Shown here: in pieces, positions 35,214-38,794 of the stretch
Layout of the letters: the number at the start of each line of letters is the position of its first letter
Numbering within the stretch: position 1 is the first letter of the stretch
Assembly (NCBI GenBank): GCA_020440825.1
Contig: JAGRNJ010000002.1
Coordinates: 1-64,000, forward strand
Source of the DNA: Leptospiraceae bacterium
GTDB lineage: Bacteria; Spirochaetota; Leptospiria; Turneriellales; Turneriellaceae
Length of the DNA stretch: 64,000 nucleotides
Direction: 5' to 3'
The notes under the pieces: generated by a model
What the model was told of the DNA's origin: nothing
Databases searched by the model: none
Seen by the model: the letters and a program-made list of their open reading frames with translations, nothing else
Program-made: the position numbers and the translations under genes

Positions 35214-35792
35214 ATGGATTTTATAGTATTTATTTTAATTTTATTGGTTTTAACCACACTTACTCTGGCTGGTAATTATTACCGAAGGCTGTTTTCAGAT
35301 GGTCGAAATGAATACCGCCGGCAGGAATTATTGAAGGCAGAGAGTTTTCTATGGGAAGAAATTCGACGTCTGGTGAATCCTGATTCAGTGGTAAGCTATG
35401 CTGGCTTAGGGGCCGGGGTTTTACTGGGATTGATGTTCAGCTATATGGGTGGTATTTACGGAGCCCATTACGAGAGCTACTTTTTCCACAGTGCACTGTT
35501 GCCCGCTTTGTGGTTTTTCGGGGCACCTTATTTGAAAGACCAGTTTGGTGATGATCTGCCAGAGTTTAGTAAACGGTTTTTGCAGCATGACCTGCCTTTT
35601 TTCCTGAGTTTTTCAATGACGTTTGCAGCACAGAGTTTCATGGTATACGGAATTTACCATGCTATCAGCTTTTTATGGGTTTTTCTGAATTTCGCTATTA
35701 TACTTGGCCTGGTTCTGTATAAAATGTACCAGGTAGACCGTGGCGGGAATGGCCTGCCGGTTGCTTCTCAAGTGGACGACGATGACTACTGA
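35214..35792 (+). CDS. Multi-pass membrane protein of unknown function
   Basis: A 192-residue protein with hydrophobic segments at ~2-20, ~63-82, ~89-107, ~124-143 and ~148-168, and an acidic tail (DDDDY). An N-terminal charged cytoplasmic-type stretch (~25-55) separates the first two. I recognise no family. It overlaps the cheW start by eleven bases and is very likely in the same transcript, so a role near chemotaxis arrays or the cell envelope is possible but only inferred from position. Confidence 0.65.
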   Translation: MDFIVFILILLVLTTLTLAGNYYRRLFSDGRNEYRRQELLKAESFLWEEIRRLVNPDSVVSYAGLGAGVLLGLMFSYMGGIYGAHYESYFFHSALLPALWFFGAPYLKDQFGDDLPEFSKRFLQHDLPFFLSFSMTFAAQSFMVYGIYHAISFLWVFLNFAIILGLVLYKMYQVDRGGNGLPVASQVDDDDY

Positions 35793-36267
35793 TTCAAAAT
35801 CAGAAATTAGCCGCGATTCTGTACAGCTGATCGTTTTTTCGGTTGGCAACGAAGAATATGGGCTTGAAATCGAAAAAATTCAGGAAGTAATTCGCCTGAA
35901 AACCATAAAAAAACTGCCGCGCACTCCCGAATTTATTCTGGGAGTCATGAATCTTCGGGGCAAGATTATTCCTATTGTAGGGCTGCGTGAAAAATTCAAT
36001 CTTGATCCCATTGAACAGAATGAGTTTACCCGCATCATTGTTGTCAATCAAAGCCAGAAACTGATCGGCATGGTGGTCGACGAAGTCAATCGAGTGGTGA
36101 ATGTACCCGTTGAAAATATCGAAGGGAATCCCGATATGGTCAATGACAAAACCCGATCTCTGGTAAGAGGGGTCGCAAAACTGGAAGATGCTGTCATAAT
36201 TCTCGTTGAACTGGATTATCTATTGTACGCCCTCGAAGAAATACAATACGAGGATAACCATCACTGA
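35782..36267 (+). CDS. cheW: Chemotaxis coupling protein CheW
   Basis: A 161-residue CheW. SVGNEEYGLEIEKIQEVI, the RTPEFILGVMNLRGKIIPIVGLR core, and VVDEVNRVVNVP are the typical receptor and CheA binding elements. It links methyl-accepting receptors to CheA. The ATG at 35782 lies inside the upstream membrane-protein gene; an ATG at 35740 is open but its extra residues do not fit the family. The stop TGA at 36265-36267 overlaps the CTG that seems to start the next gene. No cheA or receptor lies nearby. Confidence 0.95.
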   Translation: MTTDSKSEISRDSVQLIVFSVGNEEYGLEIEKIQEVIRLKTIKKLPRTPEFILGVMNLRGKIIPIVGLREKFNLDPIEQNEFTRIIVVNQSQKLIGMVVDEVNRVVNVPVENIEGNPDMVNDKTRSLVRGVAKLEDAVIILVELDYLLYALEEIQYEDNHH

Positions 36268-37613
36268 AATTACTCTGGGGCAAGCAGGGCTCTCGCCAAT
36301 TTCTGCTTCTCTTTTTTACCTGTTTCAGTCTTGAACTGACTGCTTTCGAAGTTGAGCAGTTTGATCCCAAGAAGATAATTGTATCCGGTAGCTCATTTGA
36401 TCAGTCTGAGTTACAGTTGTTGTTTCAGAATTCGAAATCTCTGTCTCAGGCACAGAGTCGACTCTCGGAATATTATCGAACCCTTGGCTATGCTCATATC
36501 AGTGTTGAACAAAATGGCAACACTCTTCAGGTTCAAGAGTACCCGGTTTGGGAAATTGAATGCCAACCTTTAGATTTGTGTCGCCTTATTCCCGATAAGG
36601 CGTCACTATTGCTGAAACCGGTACGCACCATAGATCTCGAGAATGCAATATCAACAATTGCTGAAAGTGAAGAATATAAATCAAGTTATCGAAATTTAAC
36701 AATTACTCCCTGGATAAACCGTACAAACCAGATGACAGTTTTAAAGATTCAGGCCGATTCACGAAATGAAATCAACGCTTTCTGGACGGGTCAGAATTAT
36801 CGAAACCCGGGAATCTACACAGAATTCGGTATGGCAGTTAAATACAATAAAATACAGACAGGGTTCTCGGCAGAAGCGGGGGTTACCGATACTACCGATC
36901 TGCTGGGAGGGTCTGTTTTTTTTTCAGTACAGCCATTGGTTTTACCGGTCAATATTCAAACGACTGGCCGATTCCGAAAGCTTTCATTTGATGAATTCAA
37001 CAGACAGATTGCTCAGGCAAACCTGCATGTAATTGCAAAAGTTGACAGTTCTCTCTTGGGAACATTGTTTTCCTATTCAGGGGCTTCTGTACAATATCGA
37101 ACTGTGCAACCACGCAGTGAAACAGCTGAAGAAAATGCAACATTGCTATGGGACTTCGGTCTTCACATGGGTGAGAATCTGGCAAAACGACCAGAAGAGT
37201 CTGTCGACGGGGTGGGGTTTATCTTGCATCTCAATAACGACAATCGAGACCGCTCTCTCGTAAATCTGTACATGAACTCTTCACTCGAAATTGCCGAAAG
37301 CTGGCGGTTGCGGGCTATTGGTTTCGGGCGGATGGCCCCCGGCTCATTTGCTGAGCCCGTCAACAGCTGGGCACTGGGCTATTATCGTATTTTTACAGGT
37401 ACATTCTATTCTACAACTCTGGCACTGGAAAAATACTCAGACAATGCAGGGGCGGGAATCTTTTCAGAGTTTCGTACCCTCAATGGACATTCCGCCGGTC
37501 TGGCTTTTTTTTTCAAGTGGCTTGTGTTTGACCTTCGCTTGACGGCCGGGCACACTTTTATACCTTCAGCCTCAGAATGGTTCGTGCAGATGAAATCCCG
37601 GGGAGAGTTTTAG
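36264..37613 (+). CDS. POTRA/beta-barrel outer-membrane protein with apparent CTG start
   Basis: About 449 residues if read from the CTG at 36264. The first ~30 residues (LKLLWGKQGSRQFLLLFF...) form a good signal peptide, followed by a POTRA-like module (IIVSGSSFDQSELQLL, then YYRTLGYAHISVEQNGNTLQVQE). The remaining ~330 residues show strand repeats, and the last residue is Phe, typical of BamA-inserted barrels. There is no ATG, GTG or TTG in this frame between the upstream in-frame stop and 36417, and a start at 36417 would delete the signal peptide and half the POTRA. The CTG overlaps the cheW stop as CTGA, with GAGG at 36250-36253 ten bases before. The likely class is a small Omp85-like or TpsB-like protein. 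Confidence 0.7.
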   Translation: MKLLWGKQGSRQFLLLFFTCFSLELTAFEVEQFDPKKIIVSGSSFDQSELQLLFQNSKSLSQAQSRLSEYYRTLGYAHISVEQNGNTLQVQEYPVWEIECQPLDLCRLIPDKASLLLKPVRTIDLENAISTIAESEEYKSSYRNLTITPWINRTNQMTVLKIQADSRNEINAFWTGQNYRNPGIYTEFGMAVKYNKIQTGFSAEAGVTDTTDLLGGSVFFSVQPLVLPVNIQTTGRFRKLSFDEFNRQIAQANLHVIAKVDSSLLGTLFSYSGASVQYRTVQPRSETAEENATLLWDFGLHMGENLAKRPEESVDGVGFILHLNNDNRDRSLVNLYMNSSLEIAESWRLRAIGFGRMAPGSFAEPVNSWALGYYRIFTGTFYSTTLALEKYSDNAGAGIFSEFRTLNGHSAGLAFFFKWLVFDLRLTAGHTFIPSASEWFVQMKSRGEF

Positions 37614-38794
37614 ACTTCATATTTGAGGCGTATTATACAGCACTTCCGGGAGTTGGTCGTACAGAACCAAACCCTGCTGTGGGGGCAGTCATTGCAGATC
37701 GACAGACCCTGCAGGTGCATGGCAAAGGATTTACAGATACCCCGGGTGGCCCGCATGCTGAAATCGTTGCTCTTGATGCAGCAAAGGTTTTTCTTTCAGG
37801 AAAATCATTGCAGAATGCAGAATTATTTGTCACTCTGGAACCCTGTTCCCATTTCGGACGCACCCCGCCGTGTACCCGTGCTATTATTGAGTCTGGGATT
37901 CCCACAATCTATGTAGCGAATAAAGATCCATTTGATGCTGTAAATGGTTCGGGTATTGATGAATTGCGAAAAGCGGGTAAAACTGTAACGCTGATTCCCG
38001 AGAGTTACTTCAAAACTGAGCGTTTTTTTTCGGTGGGTCCTTTTTTACAGACGATCACACACAAACGACCTAGAACCATTGTAAAATGGGCACAGACTGC
38101 ACAAGGAAATCTTGCACCGGCATCAGGGCAAAGCGGGGCGATCAGTTCTGTATTTGCGAGACAGCTGGTGCAGAGAATGCGGAAAATATTTTATTCAACG
38201 CTGGTAGCACCTGGTACAGTGGCGACAGATATGCCCGCTTTAATTCCCCGTATTAAACCGGGATTTCCGCTCGCATGCAATGAAAGCAATTATTTTGTTT
38301 CTCTGTTAAACCAGTTTGAGTATCCACGACCGGCAAATTCAAGATCCCGCCTTGCCCGCAGATTTTTCTGGTTACCGCGAAATTTTTCGAATGAAGAAGC
38401 CATGGCTTATTTTCGACATCAATTCAGTATGGGCGAAGACTTTCAATTTCTATCTGGGAATGCAGAACATACCCGGCTGGGAGAAAAATTTTCGGCAGAA
38501 TATTTCAATTCTATGCAGGATTTCCCGAAATTGCTTAATTTCCTTTATGAGCAGAATCTGCGCGAGGTTTTCATTGAGCCGGGACCGCGCTTCTTAACCT
38601 ATTTAATAGAAAATGATCATGCAGATGTTCTGTTTATTTTCAAAAGAAAGAAACCACTACCTGAGTTTAAAAATGGGCGTGCAACTAAAGCAAGTACTGC
38701 TCTCAGTAAAAATAATCTTGATTATTTCACTGACCTTGGTTATTCCTTTCGATGCAGATTCCTATGCCCGAAGAAGATTTATTCTTATTTATAA
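37577..38794 (+). CDS. ribD: Riboflavin biosynthesis bifunctional deaminase/reductase RibD
   Basis: A 405-residue protein. The deaminase half has GRTEPNPAVGAVI, GPHAEIVAL (zinc His and catalytic Glu) and EPCSHFGRTPPC (zinc cysteines). The reductase half has RPRTIVKWAQTAQGNLA, and APGTVATDMPALIPR for NADPH/substrate binding. It converts the pyrimidine intermediate of riboflavin synthesis in two steps. The ATG at 37577 gives a 37-base overlap with the POTRA-barrel gene, an unusually long coding overlap; no later start keeps the N-terminus. About 40 residues longer than usual because of its C-terminal tail. Other rib genes are not seen. Confidence 0.93.
   Translation: MVRADEIPGRVLDFIFEAYYTALPGVGRTEPNPAVGAVIADRQTLQVHGKGFTDTPGGPHAEIVALDAAKVFLSGKSLQNAELFVTLEPCSHFGRTPPCTRAIIESGIPTIYVANKDPFDAVNGSGIDELRKAGKTVTLIPESYFKTERFFSVGPFLQTITHKRPRTIVKWAQTAQGNLAPASGQSGAISSVFARQLVQRMRKIFYSTLVAPGTVATDMPALIPRIKPGFPLACNESNYFVSLLNQFEYPRPANSRSRLARRFFWLPRNFSNEEAMAYFRHQFSMGEDFQFLSGNAEHTRLGEKFSAEYFNSMQDFPKLLNFLYEQNLREVFIEPGPRFLTYLIENDHADVLFIFKRKKPLPEFKNGRATKASTALSKNNLDYFTDLGYSFRCRFLCPKKIYSYL

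Follow-up and report, generated by a model that had tools for sequence, protein, structure and literature searches.

In the 64,000-nucleotide stretch of DNA analysed here (the window), a gene between cheW and ribD that encodes a small predicted outer-membrane barrel protein (hereafter the barrel gene) probably starts translation at a CTG codon at 36264, and we put the probability of this start at about 0.74. The window is part of a 115-kb contig (C96) of a genome (G000) of 3.78 Mb from an uncultured spirochaete relative, which is 88% complete and divided among 173 contigs. The features of the region are as follows.

35782-36267, plus strand: cheW, 161 codons, stop codon TGA at 36265-36267 (Pfam CheW, E=1.1e-37)
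36250-36253, plus strand: candidate Shine-Dalgarno (SD) motif GAGG, inside cheW, 10 nt 5' of CTG 36264
36255-36257, plus strand: TAA, the last in-frame stop before the barrel-gene frame, read from the sequence
36264-36266, plus strand: proposed start codon CTG, overlapping the cheW TGA as CTGA; coding extends to about here, and queG offers a precedent
36264-37613, plus strand: barrel gene, 449 aa, with a signal peptide, two POTRA domains and a predicted barrel
36264-36344, plus strand: signal peptide MKLLWGKQGSRQFLLLFFTCFSLELTA, with a charged n-region, a hydrophobic core and a putative cleavage site, from translation and hydropathy
36345-36545, plus strand: POTRA 1 (residues about 28-94), beginning upstream of TTG 36417, from a weak Pfam match, a structural model and Foldseek
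36417-36419, plus strand: TTG, the first standard start in the frame, inside POTRA 1, from the ORF list
36549-36758, plus strand: POTRA 2 (residues about 96-165), seen in the model's secondary structure; the POTRA of a homologue in genome G013 aligns with it
36759-37613, plus strand: predicted outer-membrane beta-barrel, following the POTRAs and ending in F, with the stop codon TAG at 37611-37613
37577-38794, plus strand: ribD, overlapping the barrel gene by 37 nt (TIGR00326, E=9e-53)

An earlier note on this DNA had claimed that no ATG, GTG or TTG occurs in the barrel-gene frame from the TAA at 36255 up to TTG 36417, and that a CTG and the cheW stop overlap in the sequence CTGA, ten bases downstream of a GAGG. 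Both statements were confirmed in the sequence, and no xTG codon other than CTG 36264 lies close to where the frame opens. The C-terminus of CheW resembles that of the CheW proteins of relatives (YALEEIQYED followed by NHH). The GAGG motif is short and stands at a longish spacing from the CTG, and its duplex with the anti-SD sequence was computed at -5.9 kcal/mol. The likeness that the note drew to the ATGA overlaps nearby also holds, NTGA gene pairs being common (51 ATGA, 25 GTGA and 8 TTGA in 1.04 Mb); most of the 24 CTGA pairs have a standard start 1-10 codons further on and are put down to chance.

The stretch from 36264 to 36416, ahead of the first standard start, is coding. Its in-frame codon use gave a log-odds score of +0.277 bits per codon, compared with -0.20 to -0.86 in the other five frames, and this score falls within the range of the window's long ORFs (43 ORFs, each of at least 200 aa). 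When read from 36264, the protein begins with (M)KLLWGKQGSRQFLLLFFTCFSLELTA, in which positive charges at K2, K8 and R12 are followed by a hydrophobic core. Translation, hydropathy and the POTRA model thus agree with what the earlier note had proposed, namely, that a signal peptide and the front of a POTRA domain are encoded ahead of TTG 36417.

The product is best read as a small two-POTRA protein of the Omp85 type, given the POTRA model with its Foldseek matches and the matches of the G013 homologue; these POTRA matches support the identification of a POTRA-barrel protein made at the outset, the barrel being predicted. The Pfam POTRA match of the window protein itself reached 13 bits, below the cut-off of 21.3. 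A model of residues 27-170 had a mean pLDDT of 63 (72-86 across much of the first domain) and showed the secondary structure expected for two POTRA domains, and its top Foldseek matches in the PDB were the POTRAs of BamA, CdiB, Omp85 and Toc75, with low TM-scores. A single-sequence fold of the full protein (pLDDT 34) was unusable. The protein has in common with the Omp85/BamA superfamily, in particular the TpsB/CdiB/FhaC group, a signal peptide, two POTRAs, a predicted C-terminal barrel and fold matches to the BamA, CdiB and Toc75 POTRAs. It differs from the TpsB/CdiB/FhaC group in being very divergent, with 449 aa and no Pfam barrel match in the window protein, and a partner exoprotein gene was not seen adjoining the barrel gene. 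We infer that the protein takes part in outer-membrane insertion or in export.

No close orthologue of the barrel gene was found in the genome collection, in 393 genomes of the phylum or in a GTDB scan. A POTRA-family search led to a remote homologue, a 464-aa protein in another family of the order (G013), which has 21% identity with the window protein (pairwise E=6e-5) and matches Pfam POTRA at 3.2e-7 (above the cut-off) and the BamA model TIGR03303 at 3.5e-8, the latter match spanning positions 274-452 only. The homologue starts with GTG, carries the signal peptide MKKLVATFLFGTSLFYA and lies directly upstream of ribD with an overlap of 22 bases; there is no cheW upstream of it, and no cheW match was found in the G013 genome. 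Because the gene stands upstream of ribD both here and in G013, in the latter without cheW, ribD is seen as its conserved partner. In 15 of the 17 other genomes of the order, ribD closely follows cheW without an intervening gene, and among the order genomes examined, the barrel gene lies between them only in the window genome. In at least four relatives of genus g5, ribD apparently starts with a GTG that overlaps the cheW TGA as GTGA, and hence, the cheW stop seems to be a re-used coupling site. In the rest of the class (20 genomes inspected), ribD mostly follows a secD-secF-like pair, as read from translations. The genomes G008/G011 and G014/G016 also encode POTRA proteins, about 420 aa long, which were set aside as different families by pairwise comparison.

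CTG starts elsewhere in the genome were surveyed over 1.42 Mb (1,415 ORFs) by looking for CTGA overlaps as well as for coding sequence that extends 5' of a frame's first standard start. Five CTGA overlaps in the 1.42 Mb, the barrel gene included, have the next standard start at least 12 codons off. Two genes from other places in the genome are described below.

C96, 97222-98427, plus strand: queG, whose CTG overlaps the TGA of an MTAP gene as CTGA, on the same contig as the barrel gene
C118, 17500, plus strand: class I/II aminotransferase gene, no standard start at the N-terminus

On sequence comparison, queG appears to start at the CTG of its CTGA overlap. Homology to orthologues sets in at residues 6-14, and position 2 of TIGR00276 aligns to residue 11, whereas the first standard start codon of queG itself comes only at residue 26; in the orthologues, standard start codons lie no more than about seven residues from the CTG column. 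As its orthologues show the start column, queG appears to be the stronger case, a better-supported CTG start than that of the barrel gene, and it provides the best indirect support for the latter. In the aminotransferase gene, a CTG stands eight bases past the upstream stop, and several orthologues have their ATG one codon further on than this CTG. The CTGA overlap at C90:5559 belongs to a 58-aa frame, and that at C140:25266 was rejected, no coding signal being found ahead of its ATG. The apparent CTGA start at 99761 of a TPR protein (C96:99363-99761, minus strand) was rejected as a frame break, because in four relatives the TPR part is fused into long frames of 636-657 codons; here, it is split from a SpoIIE-like upstream frame by a break that is either natural or from assembly. 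In another genome (G004), the 415 ORFs surveyed yielded no supported CTGA start, a sample too small to show a difference, and one apparent case was rejected because an ATG lies directly 5' of the CTG. The two CTGA starts (barrel gene and queG) and the one nearby CTG start (aminotransferase) per roughly 1,415 ORFs amount to about ten times the annotated bacterial frequency; that working CUG starts at CTGA overlaps are commoner in this lineage than in other bacteria is a doubtful proposition at present.

Apparent frame changes across A runs were also seen on other contigs. The N-terminal membrane part of a UDP-sugar epimerase-like gene (C85:43962-45299, minus strand) is apparently in another frame across such a run, through slippage or an assembly indel, and the N-terminus of a beta-carbonic-anhydrase-like frame (C88:1622-2110, minus strand) seemingly is as well.

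A standard gene finder would place the barrel-gene start at TTG 36417, the first standard start in frame, and leave the sequence upstream of it untranslated. Such a product would not be exported and would lack part of a domain, and the upstream stretch has normal coding statistics; moreover, the signal peptide and the first part of POTRA 1 are encoded in this extension, so that TTG 36417 can hardly be the functional start, and we accord it the least credence of all readings. The coding signal in 36264-36416 likewise bears out the warning of the earlier note that a start at this TTG would drop about 51 codons, including the signal peptide. The next in-frame CTG, at 36303, which lies clear of cheW and would give the signal sequence MLLFFTCFSLELTA, is a somewhat better candidate and still improbable. 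Codon use cannot separate it from CTG 36264, as the stretch between the two is too short: the 12 codons of 36267-36302 scored 3.5 bits in frame versus 2.55 and 0.46 in the other two forward frames, which barely favours the barrel-gene frame and is weak alone, and AGGG stands 5' of CTG 36303. However, a start there would leave the signal peptide without positive charge and abandon the overlap geometry, and would require a rare CTG start all the same.

The main rival to the CTG start, unlikely as it is, is a base error or strain difference at 36264, the true base being A, G or T and the overlap an ordinary ATGA, GTGA or TTGA. No homopolymer occurs at this position, substitution errors are generally rarer than indels in such assemblies, and for queG, with the same CTGA pattern and with orthologue support, the corresponding base would have to be wrong as well. 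In favour of an error, C is the only base of the four that is non-standard at 36264, the genome is fragmented and shows frame breaks at A runs in other genes, and CUG starts are very rare (PMC11497404). It is also conceivable, with very low probability, that the gene is decaying, its ATG having mutated to CTG and the protein being no longer made. The absence of the barrel gene from almost all relatives is consistent with a dispensable gene; against this, 449 codons are open with ordinary codon bias, and the overlap with ribD is kept in both G013 and the window genome.

CUG accounts for 0.024% of bacterial initiation codons, with an output of 0.86% of that of AUG (PMC11497404), and only 2 switches to CUG were counted among 61,358 ancestral AUG starts (PMC5622118); in Salmonella, CUG starts of alternative proteoforms have also been mapped (PMC11005335). 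The start proposed here shares with this rare bacterial CUG initiation the use of CUG with a normal initiator tRNA. In contrast to the known cases, the barrel-gene CUG would serve as the principal start of an entire gene, and no standard codon further upstream could take its place. The initiator tRNA of the genome (C55:14443) has a normal anticodon stem, GGGCTCATAACCC (GGG/CCC), and a relaxed initiator tRNA was looked for in the genome and not found; therefore, no relaxed initiator accounts for the CTG start, and the normal tRNA, like the rarity of CUG initiation, counts against this reading.

Gene pairs whose stop and start codons overlap can sustain termination-reinitiation in bacteria, in most cases together with an SD motif (Huber et al. 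2019, PMC6728339). The barrel-gene CTGA overlap has this layout, with a four-base stop/start overlap and an SD-like motif in the upstream gene, but with CTG rather than ATG, GTG or TTG, which makes it a candidate for coupling by its sequence layout. Ribosomes ending cheW at TGA would reinitiate at the overlapping CTG 36264, with the help of the GAGG ten bases upstream, and fMet would be inserted at this codon. The barrel protein is probably produced at a low level because CUG initiates poorly, and its level may follow that of cheW, as the earlier note had suggested. Ribosomal frameshifting from cheW was considered and rejected, since the junction lacks a slippery run and the protein opens with a signal peptide.

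The proposed CTG start of the barrel gene is unusual but of an already known, rare kind, to which it adds a good case. The barrel gene and queG offer concrete natural cases in which CUG initiation at stop-start overlaps can be put to the test. Because the start is most likely a CTG that overlaps the end of cheW, standard gene finders would cut off the export signal, and those limited to ATG, GTG and TTG would remove the signal peptide and part of the POTRA domain. If the lineage reading is true, tight coupling may permit the use of a codon that normally initiates at less than 1% of AUG, and, if coupling rescues CUG, this would be relevant to the question of why so few genes start with CUG although GUG and UUG are tolerated.
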